The position numbers were made by a program, and so were the translations under genes. From Perlucidibaca aquatica (GTDB taxonomy: Bacteria; Pseudomonadota; Gammaproteobacteria; Pseudomonadales; Moraxellaceae), in contig NZ_LZDB01000001.1 of the NCBI RefSeq assembly GCF_001676655.1, positions 620,001 to 684,000 on the forward strand: DNA of 64,000 nt, read 5' to 3'. How positions within the stretch are numbered: the stretch's first letter is position 1; each line of letters opens with the position of its first letter. Of the stretch, positions 25,891 through 55,118 are shown one piece after another. The notes under the pieces were generated by a model. The model saw only the letters and a list, made by a program, of their open reading frames with translations. It was not told where the DNA came from and did no database searches.

Positions 25891-25894
25891 TTTT

Positions 25895-28974: not shown

Positions 28975-29329
28975 TGGCCACCTTACAAAGTCAGCATCAT
29001 TAATTATTTCTGGTATTATTTTTAAAAAATATCTTAAGAAAGTTAGTTGGTTGCTTTGGGCTGAGTTGCCGCTTGAGTGTGGCTTGGCTGTTAGCGCTAT
29101 TTTAATTTTACTAGCTAGCGATGAAACTATTTCTGAGCGCCAAGCATAAAATGCTGCGTTATGGCTGGCTTCTAATGAATATTTATGGGCAATTATTTAG
29201 CTGTCAGCGCTAGCGGATTGGAAGAAAGGCTGCTGCTATCAAGATTCTCGCCGAATGGCTACAACATTGGCTGACTCAATTCCCCTGTTTCCAGTAAGCT
29301 CTCACTGATTGAAAACAGGGAGTCACTAC
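28975..29329. other. 355-base AT-rich gap after the IS; hydrophobic ORF remnant and RBS hairpin
   Basis: A plus-strand frame open to 29149 carries hydrophobic segments (SASLIISGIIFKK and LAVSAILILLASDE), probably the tail of a membrane protein whose start has been lost. From 29150 to 29280 I see nothing recognisable. At the end, CCCTGTTT (29283-29290) pairs with AAACAGGG (29313-29320), with an inner CAGT/ACTG pair; this hairpin covers part of the GGGAG ribosome-binding site (29318-29322) of the next gene. Confidence 0.4.
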
Positions 29330-30637
29330 ATGCTGAATCACGCTGCCTTGTCGGGCAAGACCGTCGCCATCATTGGCCTTGGCTATGTCGGTCTTCCGTT
29401 GGCCTTGGCCTTTGGCCGCGTCATGCCCACCATCGGCTTCGATATCAGCGAGGCCAAGCTCAAGGCCTATCGGGATGGCTATGACCCCACCGGCGAGATG
29501 GAGCCTTCAGCATTCCAGGCGTCCACACAGCTCGCGGTTACATCGCAAGCCGCTGAACTTGCCGCCGCTGACTACTTAATCATTGCCGTGCCCACCCCCA
29601 TCGACAATGCCAAGCAGCCTGACCTGACGCCTGTCATCCGCGCCACAGAAACTATTGCGCCGCATCTTAAGCCCGGTGCCATTGTGATTTACGAATCTAC
29701 GGTGTACCCCGGCGTTACCGATGATGTTTGCGCGCCTATCCTGGAGCGCTTGTCTGGCAAGCGTCGAGGCGTGGATTTCAAGCTGGGCTATTCCCCCGAG
29801 CGTATCAATCCGGGCGACAAAACCCATCGCCTGGAAACCATCATCAAGATTGTGGCTGCTGAAGATGCCGAGTCACTGGATCGTGTTGCCGCACTTTATG
29901 AGGCCGTGGTTGAGCCCGGTGTTTATCGCGCTTCGTCGATCCGTGTCGCGGAAGCGGCCAAGGTCATCGAAAACACTCAGCGTGATGTGAATATTGCGCT
30001 GGTCAATGAGCTGGCGGTGATCTTCAATCTCATGGGCATTGATACGCTGGAGGTGCTTGAGGCGGCAGGCACCAAGTGGAACTTCCTGCCATTCCGCCCC
30101 GGTCTGGTTGGCGGCCATTGCATTGGGGTTGACCCGTACTACCTCACGCACAAGACCCAAACGCTGGGCTATAACCCGGAGGTCATTCTGGCTGGCCGCC
30201 GTATTAACGACCGCATGGGTTCGTATCTGGCGCAGCAAACCGTGCGTGAAATGCTCAAGGCTGATCGCCTGCGCGCTGGCGCTACCGTGTTGGTGATGGG
30301 CCTGACCTTCAAGGAAAACTGTGCCGATATTCGCAACAGCAAAGTCATCGATATTGTGCATGAGCTGCAAGAGCATGGTCTCAAGGTAGTGATCTGGGAC
30401 CCGGTCGCAGATGCGCATGAAGCGCATGAAGAGTACGGCGTAACGATGGTGGCCGACTGGCACGCCGTGCCGAGAGTTGATGCGGTTGTGGTGGCCGTTG
30501 CTCATGCTCGCATCAAGGCACTGGCACCAGCGGAGCTTGTGGCCGCGTTTGGTGTGGGTACGCCAGTGATTGACATCAAGTCTGTGTTTGACCGAGGAGC
30601 GTTTGCTGCGGCCGGGCTGCCGCTATGGCGTTTGTAG
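29330..30637 (+). CDS. UDP-N-acetylhexosamine 6-dehydrogenase (TviB/WbpO type)
   Basis: A 435-residue UDP-sugar dehydrogenase. The NAD-binding VAIIGLGYVGLPLALAFG is near the N-terminus, ESTVYPGVTDD and YSPERINPGD follow, and the catalytic Cys264 lies in LVGGHCIGVDPYYL. The C-terminal NAD/UDP domain shows MGLTFKENCADIRNSK. The ERINPGD motif and length point to the group that oxidises UDP-GlcNAc or UDP-GalNAc to the uronic acid (TviB, WbpO) rather than UDP-glucose. No epimerase partner (TviC/WbpP) is in the window. GC content returns to the chromosomal level here. The start is ATG 29330 with GGGAG upstream. It converges on the next gene with only one base between. Confidence 0.9.
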   Translation: MLNHAALSGKTVAIIGLGYVGLPLALAFGRVMPTIGFDISEAKLKAYRDGYDPTGEMEPSAFQASTQLAVTSQAAELAAADYLIIAVPTPIDNAKQPDLTPVIRATETIAPHLKPGAIVIYESTVYPGVTDDVCAPILERLSGKRRGVDFKLGYSPERINPGDKTHRLETIIKIVAAEDAESLDRVAALYEAVVEPGVYRASSIRVAEAAKVIENTQRDVNIALVNELAVIFNLMGIDTLEVLEAAGTKWNFLPFRPGLVGGHCIGVDPYYLTHKTQTLGYNPEVILAGRRINDRMGSYLAQQTVREMLKADRLRAGATVLVMGLTFKENCADIRNSKVIDIVHELQEHGLKVVIWDPVADAHEAHEEYGVTMVADWHAVPRVDAVVVAVAHARIKALAPAELVAAFGVGTPVIDIKSVFDRGAFAAAGLPLWRL

Positions 30638-30638
30638 T

Positions 30639-31391
30639 TCAGGTGTTGCCATGCTGTTGGTCTGCCAGGAGGAGATACGAAATATTTAGTGTGGATATTT
30701 CGCTGTACTTGAGCACAAACTGATCGCCAGAAATTGCATAAAAGCGGTCGGCTGCTGTCGCGCTTACAGAAGTTCTGTCTTGATTCAAGAGTCTTCGTGC
30801 CGCTTGAGTCAAGACCAAGCGATTAAGCCTCCCATCGTCGGCCAGCTCAAAACCCGCTAACAAACCTTGATACAGGTAGGCATGGCCCTCGATTCCAACA
30901 GTTGCGGCAACGAAGGTGCCATCTACCGGGGATGTATGGTCTGCACCGGTTAACAGGTAAAACCAAGGCGCATCCCCTCTCACAAAAGCAGATAATTTGT
31001 GGCCTGGCCGTTCAAAATCATAATGAGTGACGATTAACAGCCAGATCGTGGCGGCTAGCCAAGCGCCAAACCAGGTCAATCCAAAGTAGTTCAATACAAG
31101 GGACGGATTTGTATTCCAGGCGACTTGCCAATGCTGCTGTTGAGTGCTCATGTTTTCTGGCTGAACGAGCAATAGGTAAATATCGCCGAGTCTGACTTCG
31201 TAACCATTCAGACGTGCTGTGCCATAGGCAATGCTATTGATGATTGCGGAATAAAGCAGTGCCACCAATGATGTACGGCCGAATGGTGTGGACTCAGTGG
31301 CGCGAATTTCGCGACGCTGATTGAACTCGCGAAAAATAAAGCCTGGTGCCGCGAAAAGAAAAATCAATAATGCTGGAAATGCGATGTCCAT
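30639..31391 (-). CDS. Unknown membrane protein (possibly DUF6338-like)
   Basis: A 250-residue protein with three hydrophobic segments: residues about 3-20 (AFPALLIFLFAAPGFIF), 40-57 (SLVALLYSAIINSIAYG) and 105-123 (FGLTWFGAWLAATIWLLIV). The C-terminal half is soluble, with a GDAPWFYLLTG block and a later VATVGIEGHAYLYQG-like stretch. I do not recognise it firmly; the layout resembles the DUF6338 family. ATG 31391 is chosen because GGAG lies 8 bases upstream. It is the last gene of the minus-strand rml operon and follows a small unknown protein. No function is proposed. Confidence 0.6.
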   Translation of the reverse strand: MDIAFPALLIFLFAAPGFIFREFNQRREIRATESTPFGRTSLVALLYSAIINSIAYGTARLNGYEVRLGDIYLLLVQPENMSTQQQHWQVAWNTNPSLVLNYFGLTWFGAWLAATIWLLIVTHYDFERPGHKLSAFVRGDAPWFYLLTGADHTSPVDGTFVAATVGIEGHAYLYQGLLAGFELADDGRLNRLVLTQAARRLLNQDRTSVSATAADRFYAISGDQFVLKYSEISTLNISYLLLADQQHGNT

Positions 31392-31436
31392 ATCCGGTCT
31401 CCGCTCAATGCATCCTTGCATGAGCTTGGGGCAGAT

Positions 31437-31613
31437 TTAGCGTACTGAGACTAACTGAGGGCGATAGCGGCGTGTTTCATTGTTTACCGTGAACTCGATG
31501 GTTGCCTCTGAGGTGACGCCCACTCGCGCGGTTTGCAGAATTTCACGTAACTTGCCCGCAGCTGCAGGGTCCTGCAGTAGCTGTTGTAGTTTGTGACTCA
31601 TGACCTTTTTCAT
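31437..31613 (-). CDS. Small unknown protein (58 aa)
   Basis: This 58-residue protein begins MKKVMSHKLQQLLQDPAAAG and ends in RRYRPQLVSVR. The first half looks helical and amphipathic; the second half alternates in a beta-like pattern (ATIEFTVNNETRRY). ATG 31613 follows GAGG by 6 bases, better than a TTG ten codons earlier. It lies between a GT4 gene and an unknown membrane protein on the same strand, 45 bases from the latter, so the two may form a unit. No family is recognised. Confidence 0.55.
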   Translation of the reverse strand: MKKVMSHKLQQLLQDPAAAGKLREILQTARVGVTSEATIEFTVNNETRRYRPQLVSVR

Positions 31614-31670
31614 GTCGAACCTCTGCTTTCTATTCACCTTCAATTTAGTACAGGGAGTGAATTTTTGCTA

Positions 31671-32789
31671 CTAAGCGTGGCGAGACATGCCGGTATAGAC
31701 CCATAGCGTCTCTGCGCACATGTCCGTGAGCCTGAAATGCTCAACGGGCTTATTGCGCGGGCCGGCGTTTAGTGCGTTGACGACCGCCTGCTCCAGGGCA
31801 GCGTTGTTGTTAGTCGTAACGGCCCCTTCGGGCTGGCAGGCTCGTAGAATCTCCCCCACGCCACCTTGGTCCCATGCCACGACAGGGATTCCCAGGCTGA
31901 GTGCTTCCAGCACGGTACGGCCAAAGGTTTCGGGCTGCGTGGAGAGTGACAGCACGAGCTGGCATTGGCTGAATACATCACGGATATCACTGCGCAGGCC
32001 GGTGAAAGTGATGTTATCAGCGAGCCCCATGTCTGCCACACGCGCTTTCAGCTCAGCCAGATAGGCGCGTTTTTCCTCTTCAACACCCCCCACGATTAGG
32101 CCGTGGACCGGCAGTCCTTGGGCTCGCAATGCCGACACGAGCGTGAGGAATGTCTCGTGCCCTTTTAGCCGTGTGATGCGGCCGGGGAGTGCCAGCACCT
32201 GTTGCCCGGCCAATTGTGGGTAATCTTGTTGCCATTGTGCGAGCCAGGTCGCTGAGGGTTGGTACTGGAATGGAAATTCGGCGGGATCGACACCCCGGTA
32301 AATGAGCTTGATACGTGCGGGGTCGCAGGCGGGATAGTGTGTCAGCACATAGTCACGCACGGTTTCCGATACCGCGATAACTACCTCTCCCTTAGTCATG
32401 ATGGCGCTGTAAGGGCTGACCGAATACATGCCATGTACGGTGGTCACAAATCGTGGTCGCGTAGCCGGGTTCATTCGCCTCAGAGCCAACCAAGCTATCC
32501 AGGCGGGAATGCGAGAGCGCGCATGCACAATATCCGGCTTCAGCTCCTCGAGTAGCCTGCGGAATGGTCGGATCTGGAAGAGGCTGGCAAGGGACTTGCG
32601 GTGAACGGGCATTGTGATGTGCTCACTGCCTTCGCGCTCGAGTTGCTCAACTAATCGGCCACCATTGGATACCACAATGGAGCGATGCCCTGCTGCGACT
32701 AGCGCACGGGCTATCTCGAGAGTGCCACGCTCGACCCCGCCACTATGAAGCGCGGGCAGTGTTTGCAGAACAGTGAGCTTTTTTGTCAA
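31671..32789 (-). CDS. Glycosyltransferase family 4
   Basis: A 372-residue GT-B enzyme of GT4. It starts with LTVLQTLPALHSGGVERGTLEIA, a hallmark of the family, contains PDIVHARSRIPAWIAWL, and its C-terminal half has LALPGRITRLKGHETFLTLV and LSTQPETFGRTVLEALSLGIPVV, the donor-binding block with the E-X7-E motif. It follows rmlC by 6 bases and is probably in the same transcript, so it may be a rhamnosyl- or O-antigen-sugar transferase; the sugar is inferred from context only. No membrane segment. Confidence 0.88.
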   Translation of the reverse strand: MTKKLTVLQTLPALHSGGVERGTLEIARALVAAGHRSIVVSNGGRLVEQLEREGSEHITMPVHRKSLASLFQIRPFRRLLEELKPDIVHARSRIPAWIAWLALRRMNPATRPRFVTTVHGMYSVSPYSAIMTKGEVVIAVSETVRDYVLTHYPACDPARIKLIYRGVDPAEFPFQYQPSATWLAQWQQDYPQLAGQQVLALPGRITRLKGHETFLTLVSALRAQGLPVHGLIVGGVEEEKRAYLAELKARVADMGLADNITFTGLRSDIRDVFSQCQLVLSLSTQPETFGRTVLEALSLGIPVVAWDQGGVGEILRACQPEGAVTTNNNAALEQAVVNALNAGPRNKPVEHFRLTDMCAETLWVYTGMSRHA

Positions 32790-32795
32790 TTCATT

Positions 32796-33341
32796 TCAAT
32801 CCAGTTCGCTCAGCAACTTTCCCTGACGATCTTTATCGGTGAGCAAAATCTCACTGGAAATCTCGTGCAGCGGCCACTGAATGTTCAGGGCAGGGTCATT
32901 CCACAGCAACGTCCCCTCCGACGCCGGGTGATAGTAGTCTGTGGTTTTGTAGAGAAAATCCGCCGACTCGCTCAGCACCAGAAAGCCATGCGCTAGGCCT
33001 GGTGGTATCCAAAGCTGGCGCTGGTTTTCACCACTTAGCTCCACGCCCACATGCTGGCCATAGGTGGGGGATTTAGGGCGGATATCCACGGCTACATCAA
33101 ACACGCGGCCTTGCGGCACGCGCACCAGTTTGCCCTGAGGCTGGGTGCGCTGAAAGTGTAGGCCTCGCAAAACGCCCTGGCGCGAGCGAGAGTGGTTGTC
33201 TTGCACGAAGGTGACGTCATGGCCAACGGCCTCGTTGAACTTCTGCGCGTTCCAGCTTTCCAGAAAATAGCCGCGTGCATCGCCAAAGACTCTTGGCTCC
33301 AGAATCAGCACATCAGCAATGGCGGTTCGAATCACATTCAT
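32796..33341 (-). CDS. rmlC: dTDP-4-dehydrorhamnose 3,5-epimerase
   Basis: A 181-residue cupin-fold epimerase, third enzyme of dTDP-L-rhamnose synthesis. The characteristic FVQDNHSRSRQGVLRGLHFQ contains the catalytic His region, and FLYKTTDYYHPASEGTLLWN the later Tyr and substrate-binding residues. RmlA lies 6 bases upstream. Length and N-terminus (ADVLILEPRVFGDARGYFLE) match the family. Confidence 0.96.
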   Translation of the reverse strand: MNVIRTAIADVLILEPRVFGDARGYFLESWNAQKFNEAVGHDVTFVQDNHSRSRQGVLRGLHFQRTQPQGKLVRVPQGRVFDVAVDIRPKSPTYGQHVGVELSGENQRQLWIPPGLAHGFLVLSESADFLYKTTDYYHPASEGTLLWNDPALNIQWPLHEISSEILLTDKDRQGKLLSELD

Positions 33342-33347
33342 CGGGGC

Positions 33348-34217
33348 TCAGCCTTCGTTGGCGACTTGCAGCAGGTACTGACCGTAGGCCGTTTTCTTCA
33401 GAGACTCAGCCTCGGTCAGCAGGCGCTCTTTGCTCAGCCAGCCGTTGCGATAACCGATTTCTTCGAGGCAGGCGACCTTCAAGCCTTGACGCTTCTCGAT
33501 GGTCTGCACGAACGAGCCCGCCTCCATGAGCGAGTCATGTGTACCGGTATCGAGCCAGGCAAAGCCACGGCCTAACAGCTCAACCTGCAAATCACCGCGT
33601 TGAAGATAGGCGTTGTTCACATCCGTGATTTCCAGCTCCCCGCGTTCAGAGGGCTTTACGGCTCGCGCAATGTCCACGATGTCGCGGTCGTAAAAATACA
33701 GGCCAGTCACAGCGTAATTTGACTTCGGCTTTGTCGGTTTTTCTTCAATGGAGATGGCTCTACCCGTGTTGTCGAACTCGACGACGCCAAAGCGCTCGGG
33801 GTCGGAAACGTGGTAACCAAATACGGTAGCGCCGGTTTCGCGCTCAGCGGCTGCCTTGAGCTGTGTGCCGAAGGACTGGCCGTAGAAAATATTGTCACCA
33901 AGTACTAAGCAGACGCGGTCGTTGCCAATGAAGTCGGCGCCGATGATGAAGGCCTGAGCGAGTCCGTCCGGGCTGGGCTGAATGGCATAGCTTAATGAAA
34001 TGCCAAAGCTGCTGCCGTCGCCGAGCAGACGCTGATAGCCGGGCAGATCGTCGGGGGTGGAAATGATCAGCACTTCGCGGATGCCGGCGAGCATGAGCAC
34101 CGACAGCGGGTAATAGATCATGGGCTTGTCGTAGATCGGCAGTAGCTGCTTCGACAGACCGCGAGTAATGGGGTGCAGACGCGTGCCGGAACCGCCGGCG
34201 AGAATGATGCCTTTCAT
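33348..34217 (-). CDS. rmlA: Glucose-1-phosphate thymidylyltransferase
   Basis: A 289-residue nucleotidyltransferase that makes dTDP-glucose, the first step to dTDP-rhamnose. It begins [20 protein letters not shown] with [16 protein letters not shown] following, plus VLGDNIFYG (metal-binding Asp) and [23 protein letters not shown] 34217 is preceded by AGGA at good spacing; the open frame extends 19 codons further without a better site. RmlB, the next enzyme, lies 1.5 kb upstream, beyond two toxin-antitoxin modules. Confidence 0.96.
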
Positions 34218-34261
34218 GTCAGGTCCTGTTGTTTTTTGAGTCATGTTGCGTGCTGGTGAGA

Positions 34262-34660
34262 TTACAGTGCCCACTCTTCCACGGCCAGACCAGGCACTCG
34301 CAGAAATTCGCGGGCGTTATTCGTGATGAGTACGCTGTCTTCCGCTAGGCAATGCGCTGCAATCAGCATATCCATGCTGCCAATGGGCTTGCCAGTAGAC
34401 TCGAGAACTGCGCGTATATGGGCATAGTGATGAGCCGCATCAGAGGGCCATGGGCGCACATTAAAGCCGGCCAGCCAGGCCTCTACCGCAGCCGAAAAGC
34501 GGGGCGATGCCAATTTGGCAGCACCAAAACGCAGCTCAGCAGCAACTATGGACGATAGCCAGAGTTGTTCGCGATCCAGGCCTTGAAAGCGCTCGATCAT
34601 GGCTGCTGGATGGCGGCGTAGGATGTAACTGCAAATGTTGGTATCCAGAGAGCGCTGCAT
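34262..34660 (-). CDS. vapC: VapC-type PIN-domain toxin
   Basis: A 132-residue PIN-domain RNase. Acidic residues appear in order in [38 protein letters not shown] and [15 protein letters not shown]; the Asn in the last block replaces the fourth Asp, which is common in this VapC group (as in Salmonella and Shigella VapC, which cut initiator tRNA). Six bases separate it from vapB. It lies 44 bases before rmlA. Confidence 0.9.
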
Positions 34661-34666
34661 CCTGCT

Positions 34667-34918
34667 TTAGCTCCAGTCTCGTGCCTGCGGTGGTTCATCA
34701 TTACGGTCGTGCAGGAAGTCCTCTGGCAACGGCTCTGTGCTGGCGTAAAAGCTAGCAAGCCATTGCCCCATATCTTGGAGGGCTGTGTTTTGCGGCTGTA
34801 GCCATAGCGCGTTGCCAATCTGCTCGATCCGTACTTCTTGTGCTTGCAAGCGGAGTTTGGCTGGCAGCCGAATGGCTTGGCTGCGCCCACTCATGAACAG
34901 TTTTGCGGTGGTTGTCAT
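34667..34918 (-). CDS. vapB: VapB-type antitoxin
   Basis: An 83-residue antitoxin with an N-terminal AbrB/SpoVT swapped-hairpin domain (TAKLFMSGRSQAIRLPAKLR) and a C-terminal toxin-binding tail with conserved aromatic and acidic residues (WLASFYASTEPLPEDFL). It directly precedes vapC. The upstream gap holds an inverted repeat that may be its operator. Confidence 0.9.
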   Translation of the reverse strand: MTTTAKLFMSGRSQAIRLPAKLRLQAQEVRIEQIGNALWLQPQNTALQDMGQWLASFYASTEPLPEDFLHDRNDEPPQARDWS

Positions 34919-34937
34919 GGAGTTTGCTCGCTGGATT

Positions 34938-34960
34938 GTATTATGACAGTGCCATATTAC
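34938..34960 (-). promoter_or_regulatory. Putative vapBC operator
   Basis: GTATTAT (34938-34944) and ATATTAC (34954-34960) pair in 6 of 7 positions around 9 bases, 20 bases upstream of the vapB ATG. The site includes AT-rich stretches that could serve as -10 elements. A position overlapping the promoter would fit VapBC autorepression. Pattern match only. Confidence 0.4.
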
Positions 34961-34991
34961 AGCATGTTTTATGAATAGCTACAGTCAACAT

Positions 34992-35330
34992 TCAAGCGAC
35001 CGTGTTTCGTGCGATGCCTAGATGTAGCTGCACCGCTTCTTCAACGGCCGCAAGGTCTTCGCGACTGAGTGCACCCATGAGGCTGTCCAGTTTGGATTTG
35101 TCAGCAGCCATGATTTGGTCGGCCATGGCTTTTGCGGCTTTACCGGTGACGGTAATGAGCGCTTCGCTGGGGTAGAGGCGATCAACATTGCTGGTAATTG
35201 GCACGACTACGACGCGGTTTAAATGCTTGTTGGCGGCACTGTTGCTGAGGATGATGCCCGGCCTTCGTTTGCGAACTTCGCTACCCACGGCGGGATCAAA
35301 TTGTACCCACCAAACCTCACCACGCTTCAT
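34992..35330 (-). CDS. MazF/PemK-family mRNA interferase toxin
   Basis: A 112-residue MazF-fold protein: MKRGEVWWVQFDPAVGSEVR, KRRPGIILSN, VVVVPITSN and ALSREDLAAVEEAVQLHLG are family blocks, with the catalytic Arg in KRRP and Thr in PITS. Such toxins cut mRNA at short sequences. ATG 35330 lies within the end of the antitoxin gene (14-base overlap). The partner is a Phd/YefM-type protein rather than a MazE-type one, a mixed pairing. The following vapBC module begins 73 bases away. Confidence 0.88.
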   Translation of the reverse strand: MKRGEVWWVQFDPAVGSEVRKRRPGIILSNSAANKHLNRVVVVPITSNVDRLYPSEALITVTGKAAKAMADQIMAADKSKLDSLMGALSREDLAAVEEAVQLHLGIARNTVA

Positions 35331-35595
35331 CGGCGGCATCCTTGCTGAGTCCGTTGATCCATGCGCTCGCTTCCTGCTCCCGCACTTCATCGGCTCCCAT
35401 GGCGGCATAGCCTGCTTCCAGGCTGGGCCAGTGCTGCTGCTCATGGCGCTTCAGTCGTTGATATTCCGCCACTGAAATAAGCATGACGGCTGGACGACCC
35501 GAGCGCTCAATGAGCACGGGCTCGACGAGTGCGGCTTCAATATAGGTGCCGAGACGATTTTTCGCTTCACTGGCGCTGATGCTGTGCATGCTCAT
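35317..35595 (-). CDS. Phd/YefM-family antitoxin
   Basis: A 92-residue antitoxin. The N-terminal HSISASEAKNRLGTYIEAAL and VLIERSGRPAVMLISVAEYQ are the Phd/YefM DNA-binding fold; the C-terminal acidic tail (GADEVREQEASAWINGLSKD) would bind the toxin. ATG 35595 is used because upstream codons run into the 3' end of rmlB. It overlaps the MazF-like gene by 14 bases, strong evidence that they form one module. It lies 74 bases after the rmlB stop, with its own probable operator. Confidence 0.85.
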   Translation of the reverse strand: MSMHSISASEAKNRLGTYIEAALVEPVLIERSGRPAVMLISVAEYQRLKRHEQQHWPSLEAGYAAMGADEVREQEASAWINGLSKDAADEAW

Positions 35596-35604
35596 GATAG
35601 GTAA

Positions 35605-35612
35605 TTGGCCAA
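35605..35612 (-). promoter_or_regulatory. Putative operator core upstream of the YefM-like antitoxin
   Basis: TTGGCCAA is a perfect 8-base palindrome, 10 bases upstream of the antitoxin ATG. A second GGCCAATT occurs at 35663-35670, at the rmlB stop. Two related sites in the leader suggest antitoxin binding, but short palindromes also occur by chance. Confidence 0.3.
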
Positions 35613-35669
35613 AATAGCTAAATCGCCTGATCGTATCGTAAGCTGTTGGGCCGAGGCAATAAGGCCAAT

Positions 35670-36731
35670 TTAGGCTCCTATCCGTTCCAATTGATAAGCC
35701 CCACTCAATACGCGCTGCCACCAAGCCTCGTTATTCAAATACCACTGCACCGTCTTGCGCAGACCGCTATCGAAGGTCTCTTGAGGGCGCCAACCCAATT
35801 CGCGTTCGATCTTTGAGGCATCAATGGCGTAACGTGCGTCATGACCGGGGCGATCTTTTACGAAGGTGATGAGGTCGGAGTAATTGGAAACGCCGGCCGG
35901 CTTTTTGTCCGCCGCCAGTTCTTCCAGCAGCGCACACAGCGTTTGCACCACATGCAGGTTCTTCTGCTCATTGTGGCCGCCAATATTGTATGTCTCGCCG
36001 ATAGCACCCTGCGTAGCTACCAGTACCAGCGCCCGCGCATGGTCTTCCACATAGAGCCAATCACGCACCTGCTGGCCATTGCCGTAGACCGGCAGCGGCT
36101 TGCCGCTCAGCGCATTCAAAATCATGTGGGGAATAAGCTTTTCCGGGAAATGGTATGGCCCGTAGTTGTTCGAACAATTAGTGATGAGTGTGGGCAAGCC
36201 ATAAGTGCGTTGCCAGGCTCGTACCAGATGATCGCTGGCGGCCTTGCTGGCGGAGTAGGGCGAGCTGGGCGCGTAGGGCGTGGTCTCGACGAATAGGTCA
36301 TCGGTGCCATGTAAGTCGCCGTAGACTTCATCGGTGCTGATGTGGTGGAAGCGAAATGCTGCTTTGCGTGCCTCGGGCAGTTGCGTCCAGTAACTCCGTG
36401 CCGCCTCCAGCAAGGTGTAGGTGCCGTGAATATTGGTCTGAATAAAGTCGCCGGGACCATCAATCGAGCGATCCACGTGTGACTCCGCTGCGAGATGCAT
36501 GACGACATCCGGCGTGTGTTCGGCAAAGACGCGATCGAGCCCGGCGCGGTCACAAATATTCACCTGAGCAAAGGCATAGCGCGGGTGGTTCACCACGCCT
36601 GCCAGCGAATCAAGATTGCCGGCATAGGTCAGGCAGTCCACGTTGATCACGTGATGCTCGGTATGCTGAATGAGTTCGCGAACCACGGCAGAGCCAATAA
36701 AGCCGGCGCCGCCGGTCACTAGAATGTTCAT
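35670..36731 (-). CDS. rmlB: dTDP-glucose 4,6-dehydratase
   Basis: A 353-residue extended short-chain dehydrogenase. [19 protein letters not shown] binds [14 protein letters not shown] holds the catalytic Thr-Asp-Glu, and [17 protein letters not shown] the Tyr-X3-Lys. It makes dTDP-4-keto-6-deoxyglucose, the second intermediate of rhamnose synthesis. It starts 3 bases after the lpxL stop, so lipid A acylation and rhamnose supply share a transcript. Two toxin-antitoxin modules separate it from rmlA. Confidence 0.97.
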
Positions 36732-36734
36732 AAA

Positions 36735-37685
36735 TTAGCGTTTCCGTTTTTTCTTAATGTAAGGCGAAGCCTCACCGGCTGGCCGACTCTTGAATCGCCG
36801 ATGAAACCACATGTACTGCGTGGGCGCTCGGCGGATCAGCGACTCGAGCACCGTATTCAGGCGCGTGGCATCAACGCTGTCATCGCCACTGGGGTAGTTT
36901 TCCAGTGGCGGCGTGAAGGTCATGGTGTAGGTTTGGTTGTCTGCATTGCGCATGAAGTGCACAAAAATAACCGGTGAATGGTTCACGCGCGCCATGCGCG
37001 AAGTGGCGATCAGGGTGGCGGCGGGGTGGCCAAAGAAGGGCGCCATCACGCCTTGTTTTAAGCCAAAGTCTTGATCCACCGAGGTCCAAACGACTTCGCC
37101 TGCTTTCAAACATTTAAACAGGGTGCGCATGTCGGCGTGATCAATCTGGCCAGCGTAGGTTTTGCTGCGGCAACGGCGAATAAAGAAGTCGAGTACGGGG
37201 TTATTTTGTGGGCGATAGACCGTGTGCAGAGGGAAAAACAGCGAGGCCGCCGTGCCGTTGAGGTCTAGGCCGCTGTAGTGCGCCCCCAAAATGATGACCC
37301 CCCGCCCTTGCGCCTGAGCGTCGAGCACATGCTGCAAGCCCTCTACGGCAATGCGGCGGCGATGGTGCTCGGTGGGCTTCATCCACGCTGCAGCGGTTTC
37401 GAAAACGCCGATGCCACCCTGACGGAAGACATCGCGCACCATGGCTTCGCGCTCCGCCTCACTCAGTGCCGGGAAGCAAAGCTTCAGATTAATACGGGTG
37501 TCGTTAACCCGCATGGGCACTAAATGATATGCCAGCCAGCCCAAGCCTTTACCGAGGCGATACTGCAGCCCCCAAGGCAGCCAGCCCATGACGTAGGCAA
37601 AAGCCACCAGCAGCCAGGTCAGCCAGTAGCGAGGGTGCAGCCAGGCGGATTGAAAGCCGTCGTTAACGCGGGTGATGCGAGACAT
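36735..37685 (-). CDS. lpxL: Lipid A biosynthesis lauroyl-type acyltransferase
   Basis: A 316-residue LpxL/HtrB-family acyltransferase with a hydrophobic N-terminal anchor (WLTWLLVAFAYVMGWLPWG). The catalytic H-X4-D is HYSGLD near residue 136; VWTSVDQDFG, MAPFFGHPAATL and APTQYMWFHRRFKSRP are typical. It adds a secondary acyl chain to Kdo-lipid A at the inner membrane. It is divergent from waaA, which makes its substrate, and co-directional with rmlB. LpxM or LpxP cannot be fully excluded, but no paralogue is in the window. The C-terminus is a run of Lys and Arg. Confidence 0.92.
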   Translation of the reverse strand: MSRITRVNDGFQSAWLHPRYWLTWLLVAFAYVMGWLPWGLQYRLGKGLGWLAYHLVPMRVNDTRINLKLCFPALSEAEREAMVRDVFRQGGIGVFETAAAWMKPTEHHRRRIAVEGLQHVLDAQAQGRGVIILGAHYSGLDLNGTAASLFFPLHTVYRPQNNPVLDFFIRRCRSKTYAGQIDHADMRTLFKCLKAGEVVWTSVDQDFGLKQGVMAPFFGHPAATLIATSRMARVNHSPVIFVHFMRNADNQTYTMTFTPPLENYPSGDDSVDATRLNTVLESLIRRAPTQYMWFHRRFKSRPAGEASPYIKKKRKR

Positions 37686-37771
37686 GAGGGTCCTTGGTCG
37701 GGTGCCTGTAACGGTGGCAAGTGTAAGCGGCTACAATGCTGGCCTCCAGTCTTTCTGTCCGGGAGCGCTCT

Positions 37772-39049
37772 GTGCCGCGCTGGCTTTACACATTGATTTT
37801 GCGCTTCGTGTTTCCGCTGATTTGGCTAAGGCTGTGGCTGCGCGGACGCCAATCGCCCCAGTACCGTCTTCGCTGGCGCGAGCGCATGGGCTATACGCTG
37901 CAGGCTAGGCCTGTCCGTCAGCCGCTTTGGATTCATGCGGTGTCGGTGGGCGAGACCTTGGCGGCGCAACCGCTGATTGCGGCAATTCGTCAGCTTGACC
38001 CCGATCTGCCTCTGCTCATCACCTCCATGACCCCAACGGGCTCCGAGCGCGTACGCGCTATTTGGGGCGATGCCGTCAGCCATGTTTACGCCCCTTACGA
38101 TTACCCCGGTGCCGTCGCGCGCTTTCTGCGGCATTGGCAGCCCTGCGCTTTGGTGGTGATGGAAACGGAGTTGTGGCCGAACACGCTGGCTGCGGCAAAA
38201 GCTCAGCGTCTGCCAGTGCTGTTGGCCAATGCGCGTTTGTCTGAGCGCTCGGCGCGCGGCTATCGCAAGGCGGGAGCGCTGACGCGTGAGCTGCTCACGG
38301 CCATCTCCGTTGTTGCTGCGCAAGATGCCGCGACTGCTGAACGCTTTCGGGCGCTGGGCATGCCTGACGAGCGTGTGGTGGTGACGGGCAGTTTGAAATT
38401 TGATTTATCCATCACGCCGGCTCAGGTTGCGTTAGCGCAGACGTGGCGAGCACAGCCCGGATTGCAGGATCGGCCCATTTGGGTGGCAGCGAGTACACAT
38501 GCGGGTGAGGATGCCCTGATGCTGGCGGCTCATGCCCAGCTGCGCCAGCAATTGCCCACGACTTTACTGATTTTGGTGCCGCGTCATCCCGAGCGTTTTG
38601 ATGCAGTGGCTCAGCAAATACAGGCGGCTGGCCAGTGCAGTGCGCGGCGCAGCCGAGATGAGCCCATTTTGCCTAACACGTCCGTTTGGCTGGGTGACAG
38701 CATGGGCGAGTTGCTCAGCTATTTGGCGCTCACTCAGGCGGCCTTTGTGGGCGGTTCATTGGTGCCTACCGGCGGGCATAATGTCTTGGAGCCCCTCGCG
38801 TTGGGTGTGCCCGTATTGACCGGGCCGCATGACTTTAACTTCGCGACCATCAACGCCGAGCTGCGTGCCGTTGGGGCATTACAGACCGTGCATGACGCCA
38901 CTGAGTTGGCTAACGCATTGGCGCGACTGCTGACAAATGCGGATGCGCGGCAGGAGCAGATATCGGCCGGACAAGCCGTCTTGGACGCAAATCGGGGTGC
39001 AGTATCACGGCAGATGGCGGTGTTGACGCCGCTGTTATTACGCCCATGA
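37772..39049 (+). CDS. waaA: Kdo transferase
   Basis: A 425-residue GT30 enzyme that adds 3-deoxy-D-manno-octulosonate residues to lipid A precursor. The N-terminal anchor LYTLILRFVFPLIWLRLWLR, then IHAVSVGETLAAQPLI (catalytic Glu), TSMTPTGSERV, VVMETELWPN and VVTGSLKFD are all present. GTG 37772 is preferred to ATG 37736: GGGAG lies 6-7 bases upstream and the resulting length matches E. coli WaaA. It overlaps rsmE by 4 bases. It is divergent from lpxL. Confidence 0.95.
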   Translation: MPRWLYTLILRFVFPLIWLRLWLRGRQSPQYRLRWRERMGYTLQARPVRQPLWIHAVSVGETLAAQPLIAAIRQLDPDLPLLITSMTPTGSERVRAIWGDAVSHVYAPYDYPGAVARFLRHWQPCALVVMETELWPNTLAAAKAQRLPVLLANARLSERSARGYRKAGALTRELLTAISVVAAQDAATAERFRALGMPDERVVVTGSLKFDLSITPAQVALAQTWRAQPGLQDRPIWVAASTHAGEDALMLAAHAQLRQQLPTTLLILVPRHPERFDAVAQQIQAAGQCSARRSRDEPILPNTSVWLGDSMGELLSYLALTQAAFVGGSLVPTGGHNVLEPLALGVPVLTGPHDFNFATINAELRAVGALQTVHDATELANALARLLTNADARQEQISAGQAVLDANRGAVSRQMAVLTPLLLRP

Positions 39050-48541: not shown

Positions 48542-49765
48542 GTGCGTGAAATTTTACTCGTCTCCATTGCGGGGCCAGATCGTCCGGGCATCAGTGCCGT
48601 GCTAACGCAGGCCTTATCGGCGCATCAGGTCAACATTCTGGATGTCAGCCAAGCGGTGATTCATGATCAATTAACCCTAGGGCTAGTGATTGAAACGGGC
48701 GGGGAGAATGACTCGGCGCTGCTGATGCGGGCCGTGCTTTTTGAGGCGCATGCCTTAGGCCTGCAAGCCCGATTCACGCCGATTAGTGCCGACAGTTATC
48801 ACCATTGGGTCGCGGGGCATGGTAAGGCGCGCTATATCCTGACGCTGCTCGCCCGCAAAATTACCGCCGAACATCTGGCAGCACTTACCAAGCTCATCGC
48901 CGATCAAGGCTTGAATATTGATGGCTTGCAGCGCCTATCAGGCCGTGTGTCGCTAGAGGATGAGCAGACCGATGCCCGCGGCAAAGCCTGCGTTGAATTC
49001 TCAGTGCGTGGTGAGCCGCGCAATGTCGATGCCATGCGCAGTGAGTTCCTGCGCTTAGCAGGCGAGCTCGGTGTGGATATTGCCTTCCAAAAAGACAACG
49101 CCTTCCGCCGTAATCGTCGCCTAGTCTGTTTTGATATGGACTCCACACTCATTGAGCATGAGGTCATTGATGAACTGGCCAAGGCGGCCGGCGTGGGTGA
49201 GCAAGTGGCAGAAATTACCGAACGTGCGATGCAGGGCGAGCTCGACTTTATCCAAAGTTTTGAGGCGCGGGTGGCGTTGCTGAAGGGTTTGGATGCCTCG
49301 GTTTTGGAGTCTATTGCGCAGTCACTCAAACTCACCGAAGGGGCGGAGCACCTCATGCGGACCCTGAAAGCGCTGGGGTATAAAACTGCGATTCTTTCTG
49401 GCGGCTTCACCTATTTCGGCGAGTATTTGCAACGCAAATTAGGCATTGATTATGTTTATGCTAATGCCCTGGAAATCGAGGACGGTAAGGTTACTGGACG
49501 TGTCGTAGGGCGCGTGGTGGATGGCCAGCGTAAGGCAGAATTGTTGCGGGAAATCGCCGCCAGTGAGGGCGTGAACCTAGAGCAGGTTATTGCCGTGGGT
49601 GATGGTGCCAACGACCTGCCCATGTTGTCGATTGCCGGCCTTGGCATCGCTTTCCGTGCGAAGCCGCTGGTGAAAGCCAATGCCAAACAAGCCATCAGCA
49701 CCTTAGGGCTGGATGGCATTTTGTACCTGCTCGGTGTGCGCGATCGCGACGTGGAGCTAGCTTAA
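48542..49765 (+). CDS. serB: Phosphoserine phosphatase with N-terminal ACT domains
   Basis: A 407-residue enzyme for the last step of serine synthesis. The N-terminal half contains two ACT-like domains (SIAGPDRPGISAVLTQALSA, later ILTLLARKITAEHLAAL); the C-terminal HAD domain has FDMDSTLIEHEVIDELA (nucleophile Asp), ILSGGFTYFGEYL and AVGDGANDLPML. GTG 48542 fits the GGGAG box 9 bases upstream and gives the usual MREILL start; ATG 48533 abuts the box. It follows parC closely. SerA, the first enzyme of the pathway, is 9 kb away in the same window. Confidence 0.95.
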   Translation: MREILLVSIAGPDRPGISAVLTQALSAHQVNILDVSQAVIHDQLTLGLVIETGGENDSALLMRAVLFEAHALGLQARFTPISADSYHHWVAGHGKARYILTLLARKITAEHLAALTKLIADQGLNIDGLQRLSGRVSLEDEQTDARGKACVEFSVRGEPRNVDAMRSEFLRLAGELGVDIAFQKDNAFRRNRRLVCFDMDSTLIEHEVIDELAKAAGVGEQVAEITERAMQGELDFIQSFEARVALLKGLDASVLESIAQSLKLTEGAEHLMRTLKALGYKTAILSGGFTYFGEYLQRKLGIDYVYANALEIEDGKVTGRVVGRVVDGQRKAELLREIAASEGVNLEQVIAVGDGANDLPMLSIAGLGIAFRAKPLVKANAKQAISTLGLDGILYLLGVRDRDVELA

Positions 49766-50644
49766 GGTCTGCTGACACATCGCCATAAAGTCAGTCAGGC
49801 TGCGAGTCGCATATTTGTTACGATGCCGCAGCATAAATAGCGAGCGTTTTAGGTTCAGGAAGGGCGTGGGCAGTACCACCAGCGTGCCTGCCGATAGCCC
49901 TTCTTTCAGCGTTAATCGTGACGCGCAGGCAATGCCAATACCGGCCTCTACTGCACCCCGAATGGCCTCAGTATGACTGAGCTCTAAACGCACCTTCAGC
50001 GTGGGTAGTTTTCCCGCAACCGCATTATCAAACACCTCTCGCGTGCCTGAGCCGGCCTCACGCAAAATCCACTGTGCGTCGTTAAAGTCAGCAGCATGCA
50101 GTGATGGCTTACGAGCCAACGGGTGTTTTGCACTGGCAAAAATGACTAGCTCATCCTCCAGCCACGGCAGCACTTCGATGTCCGGTTCATGGCAAAAACC
50201 CTCAATAAAGCCCACATCGCAGCTGAATTGACGTACAGACTCAATGACATGACGGGTATTGCCGACCTCAAGAGCGATTTCCGACTCTGGGTAGGCTTGC
50301 AGGTAGTTGCCGATGCATTGGGGCATCAGGTAATTACCGATAGTCAGGCTGGCACCGATGCGCAAACGACCCTGACCCGGACGATTGCCCGAGGCGATAT
50401 CTTCAATTTCCTGCGCGCGCGCGACCGTTTCCTGGGCCAATGGCAGCAGGCGATGACCGAGGTCATTGAGCTGTAACCGACGCCCCAGACGATCAAACAC
50501 TTTGGCATTCAGTTGCGCTTCTAGATCCGCCAGCGCCATGCTGGTCGCGCTCTGTGTCAGGTTCAGCCATTTTGCCGCTTGGGTCACGCTGCCCTCGCGG
50601 GCCACGGCAGAGAAAACGTCGAGCTGTCTGAGGGTGATGCGCAT
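49757..50644 (-). CDS. LysR-family regulator, YeiE-like
   Basis: A 295-residue LysR-type regulator. The helix-turn-helix lies in LRQLDVFSAVAREGSVTQAA and LNLTQSATSMALADLEAQL; the ligand-binding domain has RIGASLTIGNYLMPQCIG, FIEGFCHEP, WILREAGSGTRE and SHTEAIRGAVEAGIGIACAS. These blocks resemble E. coli YeiE, reported to respond to sulfite, and CysB/CbbR-type relatives. The stop overlaps that of convergent serB by 9 bases. No divergent target gene sits at its start, so its regulon cannot be guessed from here. Confidence 0.88.
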   Translation of the reverse strand: MRITLRQLDVFSAVAREGSVTQAAKWLNLTQSATSMALADLEAQLNAKVFDRLGRRLQLNDLGHRLLPLAQETVARAQEIEDIASGNRPGQGRLRIGASLTIGNYLMPQCIGNYLQAYPESEIALEVGNTRHVIESVRQFSCDVGFIEGFCHEPDIEVLPWLEDELVIFASAKHPLARKPSLHAADFNDAQWILREAGSGTREVFDNAVAGKLPTLKVRLELSHTEAIRGAVEAGIGIACASRLTLKEGLSAGTLVVLPTPFLNLKRSLFMLRHRNKYATRSLTDFMAMCQQTLS

Positions 50645-50701
50645 GCGGGGACTCGGTCATCGTGAAAGTTTGACTGGAGTTTACGCTGACCTAGCCATAA
50701 A

Positions 50702-50730
50702 AAAACCCGCGAAACGAGTTCGCGGGTTTT
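50702..50730 (-). terminator. Rho-independent terminator of the 50752-52170 lipoprotein gene
   Basis: AAAACCCGCGAA and TTCGCGGGTTTT form a perfect 12-pair stem with a 5-base loop. On the minus strand it is followed by a run of T residues, 22 bases after the lipoprotein stop. It also reads as a hairpin on the other strand but with a weaker U-run. Confidence 0.9.
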
Positions 50731-50751
50731 GGGTGTTACCGGAGCAGTCGG

Positions 50752-52170
50752 TTAGATGGGGAGGCCACCTGTGATACCGCCCAACAAGCCACCGAGCAGA
50801 CCACCGAGTACGGGGCCAACAACAGGGATTTGGTTGAGTGCGTCTAGGCCTGGAACTGCGCCGCCGCCGGTGCCTGTACCAGCGCCGCCACTGAGGATGC
50901 CATTTAAGGTGTCAATTACCGGCGCTAACGCAGCATCATCTGCAGCAACTAGGGCGTCGACGAGGTCATTAAGCTGGCCAAGTGCTTCACCGCTGGAGGT
51001 GACTTCATTGAGGACGCCTGTCAGTGGTGCGAGCGCGCCTGCATTAGGATCAACCAGCATATTCACCAAGTCTTGAACTGGTGTGAGCGGCGTGTTGCCC
51101 AGCAAGTTATCAACAGTGTCTTGCACGCCGGAGATAACGCCATCGCTGGTGCCACCACCGGTGCCGCCACCTGCCGAAGGGATTAAGCCAGCCAGCGGAT
51201 TGCTACCACCGCCCGCGCTCAGACCGCCTGCCAAACCCTGCAGCGCTGCAGCAATTTCGGCGGGGTCTTGGTTGGTGAGCAGGCCAACCAGAACGCCGTT
51301 AAGCGCAGTGATGACCGGTGCAAGAGCAGCATCGTCAGCAGCAATTAAGCCATTAACCAGTTCAGACAGCGGGCCAAGTGGGCCACCCGATACGTTGGTG
51401 AGGTCTTCCAGAGCGGCTGTTAAGGGCTCCAGAGCGCCAGACTGTGGATCCAGCAGCGTATCTACCAGTTCAGATACTGCCACTAGTGGGGTGTCATTCG
51501 TGACGTCACCCAAGATGCCTTGAACTTGAGTGATCAAACCGATGTTGCCAGTGCCACCACCCGTACCACCACCTGTGCCAGGCAATGCGCCAGCGCCGCC
51601 GAGTGCACCCAGCAGGGCTGTTAACGGATTGGCGTCGCCGCCCAGTGTCAACAGGGCATCGAGCGGGGTGCCTGTTGGGCCTGTGCTGCCGCCGCCTTCA
51701 CCACCACCGAGACCCGCTAAAGCCTCTGCAATCGCTGCGGGATCAGCCCCTGCATTGAGCAGAACCAGAATCGAGTTTAGGCCTTGGATAACCGGTGTCA
51801 GAGCGCCGTCTTCATTGGCACCAACTAGGGTAACGAGGAGATCATTTACTGGGCCAAGTTGACCAGTTGGGCCAATCAGTTCTTCAAGAGCGCTTGTTAG
51901 TTCGCCCAGTGTTCCGTTAGTGCCAATCAGGTTGTTCAGTACGTCGCTGAGTGGGCCAGCAGGAGTGTCTTCTAGCAGATCGCAAAGCGCGCCCTGAGTT
52001 GTTGTGATAGCACCAGAAGGCTGAAGGTTTTGGCAAACATTCGAAGAAGTGTTTGTGTCGGTGTTGGTGTTGGTGTTGCTGCCAGTGGAGTTGCCATCGG
52101 CATTACAAGCAGCGAGACCAGCGGCCAAGGCTAGGTAAGCAGCCAATCGAGTCAGTTTAACGTTGTGCAT
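50752..52170 (-). CDS. Repeat-containing Gly/Leu-rich lipoprotein A
   Basis: A 472-residue predicted lipoprotein. A signal peptide ends in the lipobox LAAC (Cys22); Asn at +2 predicts outer-membrane sorting. After a Thr/Asn-rich tether (residues 28-44) come three tandem copies of a module, at about 69-156, 227-316 and 360-428. Each runs TPL-X-PV-X2-LV, GAL-X-PLT, GPL-X2-L-X-ELV, then DDAALAPVI and LNGVLVGLL, separated by Gly/Thr-rich linkers. The C-terminus is VVGPVLGGLLGGLLGG and then ITGGLPI, a hydrophobic Gly zipper. Similar proteins are sometimes labelled collagen-like, but there is no Gly-X-Y array. A second, related lipoprotein lies upstream. Function unknown. Confidence 0.8.
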   Translation of the reverse strand: MHNVKLTRLAAYLALAAGLAACNADGNSTGSNTNTNTDTNTSSNVCQNLQPSGAITTTQGALCDLLEDTPAGPLSDVLNNLIGTNGTLGELTSALEELIGPTGQLGPVNDLLVTLVGANEDGALTPVIQGLNSILVLLNAGADPAAIAEALAGLGGGEGGGSTGPTGTPLDALLTLGGDANPLTALLGALGGAGALPGTGGGTGGGTGNIGLITQVQGILGDVTNDTPLVAVSELVDTLLDPQSGALEPLTAALEDLTNVSGGPLGPLSELVNGLIAADDAALAPVITALNGVLVGLLTNQDPAEIAAALQGLAGGLSAGGGSNPLAGLIPSAGGGTGGGTSDGVISGVQDTVDNLLGNTPLTPVQDLVNMLVDPNAGALAPLTGVLNEVTSSGEALGQLNDLVDALVAADDAALAPVIDTLNGILSGGAGTGTGGGAVPGLDALNQIPVVGPVLGGLLGGLLGGITGGLPI

Positions 52171-52483
52171 AAAAACCTCTGTGACCCGTTGGGGGCCCGC
52201 TTATCAATGAAAAAGTGATGTCTACTAAAATCAGCAAACCTTTACAAAGCGCATCCTAGGCGGCGACCAGGTGTTACACAGTCTGCAAACTGTCTTGCTT
52301 TTGTAACTGACTGTTAAGTCGTTGCTGATTCATGAGGCATTTAAGGGCGCGAATCATAGAGAGGGCGATGCTTTTTGTCATCGCTTTGTTTCAGATAAAA
52401 AACAACCCCAGCTAGGTTTCCCTGGCTGGGGTTGTTTTTACAGGCTGAGATACAGGACGTATCAGCGCTCACAGGCGCGGAGA
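52171..52483. other. 313-base gap between the two lipoprotein genes
   Basis: No gene is seen. The half near lipoprotein A should hold its promoter, which I cannot place with confidence; an inverted repeat ACAGT-ctgcaa-ACTGT lies at 52277-52292. A GAGG ribosome-binding site precedes the lipoprotein A ATG. The other half holds the terminator of lipoprotein B, so the two genes are separate transcripts. Confidence 0.5.
52397..52439 (-). terminator. Rho-independent terminator of the 52484-53953 lipoprotein gene
   Basis: AACAACCCCAGC pairs with GCTGGGGTTGTT, extended by TAGG/CCTGG with a mismatch, giving a long stem with a short loop. The minus strand continues with a run of T residues. It lies 45 bases after the stop of lipoprotein B. 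Confidence 0.88.
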
Positions 52484-53953
52484 TTAGCCTCCAAGAAGGC
52501 CGCCTAGGCTGCCCAAAATACCTCCCACAATAGGAAGGCTGCCCAATAACCCGGTGCTGCCGCCCGTGCTCGTGGTGGTAGGCAGTGTGGTGATGGTGGT
52601 GAGCAGTGTGGTGACCACATTGTTGTTTGTGCCGGCAGCTGATGTGATGGCACTGGTTAAGTTCGAAATGACCGTTGTGGATGGCACACCGCCTCCCATG
52701 CTCACATCCAATGCTGAGGTCAGCGATGTTACGAGTGAGGTTAGGGCATTTGTGTTGGTGCTGCTGCCATTGCAGTCGCCGAACAGGGCGAGTGAGCAAG
52801 ACAGCGGTGCCAGTGCGGTAAGTACCGGGGTCAGTACAGAATTGTCCACTTGTGTTAGCAGCGTCGTGTTGAGCGTATTGGTCAACGTGTCGATGCCATT
52901 GTTGAGCTGCGTATTGCCACTGTTTACGGCGCTAATAAACTGAGCATTACCAGAGGCTGCCGCCAGCGTGCCAAGGAGGCCGGTAGGTGCAGTCAACAAG
53001 TTGCTGACATTGGTGAGGGTGTTATTCAGTGTGTTGCCCACGCTCACACCCGTACCGCTTTCCAGTGTGTTTAGCGTGACACCAAGGTCTGCTAATACGC
53101 TACCCAGTGTTTGCACCACTTCCCCTGCCAGTGGGATTTGTCCGCTGCCTGGAAGGTTGTTGTAGCCGTCTACGATGGCATCACCCACGGTTGCAAGGCC
53201 TAAGCCTAGGCTATCCACTAGCTGGCCATTCAGTGGCACAGGGGATGCGCCACCTGGGGTGCCGAGCGCAGTCAGTAGTGGGGCCAGTAATGCGTCTAAA
53301 GGCGTACCGGTTGGGCCGCCGGCTGGTGTGCCGGGTGCGCCAGCCGTGCCAAGCCCGGCCAATGGTGTGCCGGCAAATGGGTTATTACCCCCGGAAAACA
53401 GAGCAATCAGGTTTTGCAGTTGTTGCGCTGGGTCACTACCGGTGCAGACGCTGCCACGTTGACCTGCAAGGGTGGCTAGCGCGCAGGGCAGCGTTTGGGC
53501 CAGGCTTGCTACGGACGGTGGCAGTGCGCTGAGACCTTCTTGGATTTGACCCGCTGCGATGCTGAAACCTGCAGGGGTTGGATTGGCCAGAATGGTTTGT
53601 ACGCCATCCAGTAGGCCAGACACCGTAGCGTCAGGGCCGGTCAACAAATTGTTAACTACCGGGTTGAGTGCAATCAGAAAGCCACCAATGTCGAGGGGGC
53701 TGCCTGCTGGTGTATTTTGTTGAACCGTGGTGCCCAGATTCACCAACACACCCGAAAGTTGGTTGCGCGTGTCGGACAAAATTAGGCTGCTGCTGCCACC
53801 CGTACCGCCACCCGTACCGCCTGTGCCGCCACCAGTCCCACCTGTTCCTCCGGTTCCAGTTCCGCTCGAGCTGCCGCCATCGGCGCCGCAGCCTGCAAGG
53901 CTTAGGGCAATCATTAGACCGGCTGCCAAGCCAGTGAGTTTGAGTTTATTCAT
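52484..53953 (-). CDS. Gly/Leu-rich lipoprotein B, related to lipoprotein A
   Basis: A 489-residue predicted lipoprotein with the lipobox LAGC (Cys22) and Gly at +2, so outer-membrane sorting is expected. A Gly/Thr tether (residues 31-53) precedes a long, low-complexity region rich in Leu, Thr, Asn and Gly. Four cysteines lie after the lipobox (CALATL, VCTGSD, SCSLAL, DCNGSS), which could form disulfides. The PTGTPLDALL block and the C-terminal LPIVGGILGSLGGLLGG also occur in similar form in lipoprotein A. The three-fold module of A is not clear here. The RBS is GAGGA. Function unknown. Confidence 0.78.
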   Translation of the reverse strand: MNKLKLTGLAAGLMIALSLAGCGADGGSSSGTGTGGTGGTGGGTGGTGGGTGGSSSLILSDTRNQLSGVLVNLGTTVQQNTPAGSPLDIGGFLIALNPVVNNLLTGPDATVSGLLDGVQTILANPTPAGFSIAAGQIQEGLSALPPSVASLAQTLPCALATLAGQRGSVCTGSDPAQQLQNLIALFSGGNNPFAGTPLAGLGTAGAPGTPAGGPTGTPLDALLAPLLTALGTPGGASPVPLNGQLVDSLGLGLATVGDAIVDGYNNLPGSGQIPLAGEVVQTLGSVLADLGVTLNTLESGTGVSVGNTLNNTLTNVSNLLTAPTGLLGTLAAASGNAQFISAVNSGNTQLNNGIDTLTNTLNTTLLTQVDNSVLTPVLTALAPLSCSLALFGDCNGSSTNTNALTSLVTSLTSALDVSMGGGVPSTTVISNLTSAITSAAGTNNNVVTTLLTTITTLPTTTSTGGSTGLLGSLPIVGGILGSLGGLLGG

Positions 53954-54181: not shown

Positions 54182-55036
54182 TTAGCAGGCGCTGCCGAGT
54201 CGTTCGCCCATGCGCGTCGGTGTGCCAGCGGCATAGCGCTCATCCCAGCCCATCACATCGGGTCCGAACAGCACAATTGCAGTGGAGCCGAGGCGGAAGC
54301 GGCCCATTTCAGCACCTCGATTCAGCGTGATTTGCTGCCCTTCTGGAAACTCGCGTACGCGGACTTCATTGCCGATGGGCTCTACGCCGCCCCAAACGGT
54401 CTCGATGCTGGCAACGATCATGGCACCAACTAATACAACCACCATCGGACCCAGGGTTGTGTCGAAGTGAGCTACGAGGCGCTCATTGCGGGCAAATAGA
54501 TTGGGCACATTTTCGGCCGTGCGTGTGTTCACGGAAAACAGCTCGCCCGGTACATAGACGGACTTGGTCAGGCGTCCTGCGAGTGGCATATGCACCCGAT
54601 GGTAATCGCGCGGGGATAAATACACCGTGGCAAATTGGCCGCCAATATAAGCTGCCGCATCGGTATCGCTGGCGAGTAAGTCACTCAGTGAGTAGCTGTG
54701 ACCCTTGGCTTGGAAAATCTGATCTTGCGTGATGGGGCCGAGCTGAGAAACAGCACCGTCCGCTGGGCACAATATGCTGTCTGGGCGACTATCCAATGGA
54801 CGCGCGTTGGGTTTGAGTGCGCGCGTAAAGAAGGCGTTGAAGTTTTCATAGGCCGACAAGTTGGGCTCGGCGGCCTCGCTCATGTCTACTTGGTAGCGTG
54901 CGGCAAAGCGTGTGATGAAGGTGTCTTTGATCCAGGGCGTGCGGCTATCTGCCAAGCTACCCACGAGTCGTGACAGGCCATGTTGAGGAATCAGGTATTG
55001 CGGCAGTGTCAGTAGGCGGTCGCGCAGCAGAGCCAT
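54182..55036 (-). CDS. psd: Phosphatidylserine decarboxylase proenzyme
   Basis: A 284-residue inner-membrane enzyme that makes phosphatidylethanolamine. The autocleavage motif LGST is present (Ser251, which becomes the pyruvoyl group). Also conserved are FNAFFTRALKPNARPLD, CPADGAVSQLG and the catalytic-histidine region SPRDYHRVHMPLAG. ATG 55036 gives MALLRDRLLTLPQYLIP, the usual start; the open frame is 20 codons longer. The serB-psd neighbourhood is shared with Pseudomonas. Confidence 0.96.
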   Translation of the reverse strand: MALLRDRLLTLPQYLIPQHGLSRLVGSLADSRTPWIKDTFITRFAARYQVDMSEAAEPNLSAYENFNAFFTRALKPNARPLDSRPDSILCPADGAVSQLGPITQDQIFQAKGHSYSLSDLLASDTDAAAYIGGQFATVYLSPRDYHRVHMPLAGRLTKSVYVPGELFSVNTRTAENVPNLFARNERLVAHFDTTLGPMVVVLVGAMIVASIETVWGGVEPIGNEVRVREFPEGQQITLNRGAEMGRFRLGSTAIVLFGPDVMGWDERYAAGTPTRMGERLGSAC

Positions 55037-55118
55037 GGTGATGTTTTCCTTGTGCAAAAAAGTGTGCCGACCTTCGGGTACGTCCGGTGCAGGCATTAAA
55101 GCGGCGATGGTAATGCAG

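Follow-up and report, generated by a model that had tools for sequence, protein, structure and literature searches.

Two predicted lipoproteins, an uncatalogued repeat module and a variable psd-lysR slot in Perlucidibaca aquatica

Two lipoprotein genes between psd and lysR

The window analysed in this study is a stretch of 64,000 nucleotides from contig NZ_LZDB01000001.1 of Perlucidibaca aquatica. It contains two neighbouring lipoprotein genes on the minus strand, here referred to as A (472 aa) and B (489 aa), which agrees with the preliminary description of this DNA. The features of the locus are as follows.

54182..55096, minus: psd (phosphatidylserine decarboxylase), left border of the variable slot
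52484..53953, minus: gene B, 489-aa lipoprotein with a mature domain unlike that of A
53891..53953, minus: B signal peptide, residues 1-21, lipobox LAGC
53786..53890, minus: B Gly/Thr tether (read from the sequence)
53276..53317, minus: B GPTGTPLDALLAPL motif
52487..52546, minus: B Gly-rich tail
52394..52446, minus: terminator 3' of B
52104..52332, minus: A upstream region and signal-peptide block, 80-96% identical to genome G006, after which identity collapses
50752..52170, minus: gene A, 472-aa lipoprotein with three predicted helical-repeat modules
52108..52170, minus: A signal peptide, residues 1-21, lipobox LAAC
52039..52107, minus: A predicted lipid-anchor Cys22 and Asn/Thr/Ser/Gly tether (from sequence)
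51715..51993, minus: A module 1, the most divergent copy
51649..51681, minus: GPTGTPLDALL motif in A, also present in B
51226..51546, minus: A module 2
50881..51141, minus: A module 3
50773..50838, minus: A Gly-rich tail helix IPVVGPVLGGLLGGLLGG
50692..50745, minus: terminator 3' of A
49757..50644, minus: lysR, right border of the variable slot

Both proteins start with a signal peptide and a lipobox (...AAGLAAC-NADG in A, ...LSLAGC-GADG in B) and are predicted to be lipidated at Cys22 (AAGLAAC22 and LSLAGC22); the lipobox and the tether are kept in A, B, and every relative in the genus. The low-complexity tethers reported earlier were found in both proteins as runs of Gly, Thr, Asn, and Ser after the lipobox, and each gene indeed has its own strong terminator, i.e., a strong hairpin followed by a U run (-18.4 kcal/mol, z -2.7 for A; -29.6 kcal/mol, z -6.4 for B). 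The description of the two as a pair of repeat lipoproteins does not hold, however, as B lacks the module of A. Homology of the A and B centres was rejected, since profile comparison aligns the tail region alone. Common to the two are the type of signal peptide, the GPTGTPLDALL motif, and the tail, so that at this locus similar signal peptides precede two unlike mature domains. A third lipoprotein of this genome, paralog C (356 aa; G000:C1:469153-470223, L004 5154-6224, plus strand), contains the A-type module twice and shares the Gly-rich tail. A thiG-like gene adjoins it on the other strand, and the mature part of C contains 17 Lys and zero Arg, unlike that of A.

The mature part of A is devoid of Lys, Arg, Phe, Trp, and Tyr, that of B has few of these residues, and both are acidic, whereas Lys and Arg together account for 6.6-15.6% in the other ORFs of the window, the reference set for composition and cost. 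With per-residue values from a standard table, the biosynthetic cost amounts to 18.0 (A) and 18.6 (B) ATP equivalents per residue versus 23.1 +/- 1.1 for the reference set. Extracellular proteins tend toward cheaper residues (PMC7005277), and the low cost of A and B supports, short of proof, an external and abundant protein. As a separate observation made by eye and from ORF starts only, positions 23000-38000 of the window hold a run of glycosyltransferase-, sugar-nucleotide-, and polysaccharide-type genes, i.e., a surface glycan cluster.

The repeat module of A and its carriers

The three module copies described earlier for A were borne out, with a module length of about 90-105 residues and pairwise local-alignment z values of 13, 15, and 23 against shuffles. 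The signature words quoted for them are complete in modules 2 and 3 only: module 1 reads TPAGPL, GTLGELT, EDGALTPVI, and LNSIL, and module 2 has TPLVAV where TPL-X-PV was given. The module is predicted to be all-helical, with five or six short helices per copy in the same pattern in two structure predictions that used different alignments; the predictions are of low confidence (mean pLDDT 62 for A and 59 for a barrel-bearing relative described below). A periodicity of 35 residues within the module (z 5.6) and weak summed matches to the profiles of designed armadillo repeats and HEAT_PBS make an alpha-solenoid fold plausible. The module differs from armadillo/HEAT proteins in that no single stretch is significant, and model confidence is too low for a fold assignment; the best structure-search hit (Z 3.5) is meaningless at a pTM of 0.28. 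No model for the module is present in Pfam or NCBIfam, and no literature was found that joins armadillo repeats with bacterial surface adhesin lipoproteins.

Among 58 genomes, B-type proteins were found in this genus only. The A module occurs in the genus, in another member of the family (G028), in another family (G249), and in G639, Zavarzinia aquatilis, and G805. It is rare: at E 1e-6, the order sample yielded 3 positive genomes out of 390, the class sample 2 out of 369, and the phylum sample 4 out of 398, each count including the genome of the window itself and each sample being thin. No plasmid-borne relatives were found at E 1e-3, and the nearest named record is a Moraxellaceae metagenome-assembled genome (L042, the locus of G003).

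These carriers present one homologous domain on three anchoring routes, namely, I) a lipid, as in A; II) a predicted barrel; and III) type I secretion (T1SS). For route III, the G028 protein combines the module with Ig-like Big_13 and Big_6 domains (PF19077, PF17936) and a C-terminal T1SS_VCA0849 secretion target (TIGR03661, E 2e-10), the combination by which a T1SS adhesin is recognized. This links A to the giant Bap/RTX-type adhesins, from which A and B differ in being short, lipid-anchored, and without Ig-like domains or a T1SS signal. For route II, the module in Zavarzinia and G805 follows an N-terminal predicted 12-strand barrel (mean pLDDT 59, strands 65-80), a region that resembles outer-membrane proteins in structure comparison (best Z 13.8). 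The predicted order of barrel and repeat modules resembles that of inverse autotransporters (type Ve, e.g., intimin and invasin), and the Foldseek matches include intimin and invasin beta-domains, weakly (E 2e-3 to 4e-3); A and B themselves have no barrel, and the Zavarzinia and G805 relatives have no match to any inverse-autotransporter model of Pfam or NCBIfam. In Zavarzinia and for one G805 copy, the barrel-module gene immediately precedes rcpC/cpaB, a secretin, and a cpaF-type ATPase; this Flp/Tad pilus neighbourhood also includes a tadB-like gene, as tested in Zavarzinia.

Taken as a whole, carriers that are barrel proteins or a type I-secreted adhesin argue for surface display of the module. 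The T1SS route points outside the cell; the barrel route requires an intimin-like barrel for this, since a complete even-strand barrel normally places the C-terminal domain on the periplasmic side, as in OmpA. The intimin match (E ~2e-3) is weak and counts against the barrel part of the argument.

Several carriers have further repeats. The 1125-aa barrel-plus-module protein of G805 (L065 4584-7958) contains several consecutive, near-identical 29-residue units (NPLADVPVLGDLVGxLTDLGAGGLPTGGD). In G249:C3 (L029/L032), two adjacent module lipoproteins carry GGDLLGGDLLGGVLG repeat runs, one of them with a collagen-like GNDGAN tether, and a gene for an AraC-type regulator, judged by eye, adjoins them. 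The 1371-aa protein of G639 (L068 4815-8927), which has no match in Pfam or NCBIfam, combines an extended PTDPTN repeat with numerous GLLGGLLG units and carries a single A module close to its C-terminus.

Variation of the psd-lysR slot

In four other genera (G007, G008, G009, and G010) the slot is empty, with psd and lysR about 110-370 bp apart. Within the genus its contents vary: B plus A in the window, B plus B2 in G006, A in G003, B2 in G001, and a two-module A in G005. The comparison with G006 is the most informative, as the flanking genes share 95.7-97.9% nucleotide identity (dS 0.07-0.18), whereas the two B genes share 73% (dS ~2.1, saturated; dN 0.11). The simplest reading is that B is an imported allele, diverged yet under purifying selection. 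Between A and the gene at its place in G006, homology is absent after the signal-peptide block and 97% identity resumes from lysR; the first residues of A and of this B-type replacement protein are identical at 25 of 26 positions, and their mature parts are of different types. As judged from these alignments, the difference is a swap of the mature domain, with the upstream region and signal peptide conserved. The swap is clear in this one genome pair, where G006 is a draft that is 84% complete but has the whole slot on one contig. Variability of this kind is the pattern that would be expected of outward-facing proteins.

The arrangement recalls cassette-switched lipoproteins such as Borrelia VlsE, i.e., surface-type lipoproteins with a conserved N-terminal expression part and an exchanged mature part. 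In contrast to VlsE, no silent cassette archive was found in the genome, in which searches returned only A, B, and one distant, module-bearing paralog (C), and antigenic variation from cassettes within the genome was therefore rejected. A more tentative idea, which we regard as possible but not as the likeliest outcome, is that psd and lysR enclose a natural expression site where the upstream region plus signal peptide on one side and lysR on the other would serve as homology arms for horizontal mature-domain swaps between strains, and that the module is a new surface domain mounted on lipid, barrel, or T1SS anchors.

Possible location and role of A and B

Considering the above, the favoured reading, to which a probability of roughly 0.55 is assigned, is that A and B are abundant lipoproteins anchored in the outer membrane, whose acidic mature parts would be displayed on the surface, would mediate contact (most likely self-association or adhesion), and are exchanged in the psd-lysR slot. 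The earlier suggestion of a surface location or self-assembly fits the adhesin and barrel carriers, the low residue cost, and the variable locus; its second element, a protein that bridges or threads the outer membrane, is unsupported.

A different location is conceivable, although unlikely, in which A and B are envelope-structure lipoproteins on the inner leaflet of the outer membrane, facing the periplasm and without a surface part. A lipobox without Asp at +2 leads to Lol sorting to the outer membrane, on the periplasmic side by default, and this fits A and B; lipoproteins without a known surface-export signal may be retained in the periplasm, which counts against surface display, and a C-terminal domain that follows an even-strand barrel is likewise periplasmic by default. 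However, the module is extracellular in the type I-secreted adhesin, and import of alleles together with domain swapping between close relatives would be unusual for periplasmic structural proteins. It is rather improbable that A and B are interface-active lipoproteins (surfactant, emulsifier, or hydrophobic-substrate-binding) whose amphipathic acidic helices coat oil or hydrophobic surfaces: the regular short helices, the very high Leu, Gly, and Ala content, the acidity, and a mature A without aromatic or basic residues would suit such a role, which by itself leaves the slot variability unexplained.

The bridging proposal, which pairs an N-terminal lipid with a C-terminal Gly-zipper transmembrane helix, was built on the similar Gly-rich C-termini of A (LNQIPVVGPVLGGLLGGLLGG) and B (GSLPIVGGILGSLGGLLGG). 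Their similarity was confirmed. Conservation among homologues, the lack of which the preliminary description named as a refutation, is partial: the motif IPVxGxxLxGLLGGL ends A, C, and some B-type proteins, whereas some other B-type relatives end in LAGTPLAPVGGLLAVLGL. The most hydrophobic 19-mer of A starts at residue 281, within a module, the hydropathy of the tail is no higher than that of a module helix, and in the alphaproteobacterial relatives (G805 and Zavarzinia) the motif occurs many times internally with an Asp in it. A transmembrane role of the tail is unlikely on these grounds, and the tail is probably a further packing helix. Although hydrophobic Gly-rich tails are kept in A, C, and several B-type proteins, threading of the outer membrane, where alpha-helical spans are rare, is thus very improbable.

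Under the favoured reading of surface-displayed contact proteins, the lipid would hold the N-terminus of A and B at the outer membrane, the Gly/Thr/Asn tether would act as a flexible spacer, and the contact surface would be formed by the helical modules in A and by the B domain in B. Alleles are imported, and whole domains are exchanged behind the conserved upstream region and signal peptide; such variation of the mature parts is what one would expect if phages, predators, or partner recognition exerted selection.

A parallel in layout is found in the Burkholderia collagen-like lipoproteins (Bcc-CLP; PF15984, Collagen_mid), surface-associated lipoproteins with low-complexity repeats. One of these, BCAL1524, occurs in outer-membrane vesicles and promotes autoaggregation, and its gene adjoins a Flp pilus operon (PMC10303873, PMC10224339), a position comparable to that of the Zavarzinia relatives of A. 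A and B differ from it in lacking a Gly-X-Y collagen stretch; their tethers, judged by eye, are Gly/Thr/Asn/Ser runs. The PF15984 profile had no match in A, B, six B-type members, the own genome, or 57 relatives, while a positive control matched (L079, 7e-44), and profile comparison with one PF15984 lipoprotein, i.e., a single member and not the family profile, revealed no homology. One scan found no PF15984 members in another family of the class. Membership in this family was therefore rejected, and by analogy of layout A and B may work like BCAL1524 while not belonging to its family.

Three things are new here: the uncatalogued module, the three anchors that carry it, and the variable psd-lysR slot. 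Neither of the two general protein-family libraries searched has a model for this repeat domain, which occurs on three kinds of anchor and in two classes of Proteobacteria; it may explain part of the Gly/Leu-rich lipoproteins that are annotated as hypothetical or collagen-like. The slot is a compact locus whose surface-type lipoproteins are replaced between near-identical flanks, and such a locus would permit a direct test of the selective agent, be it phage, predator, or partner cell.
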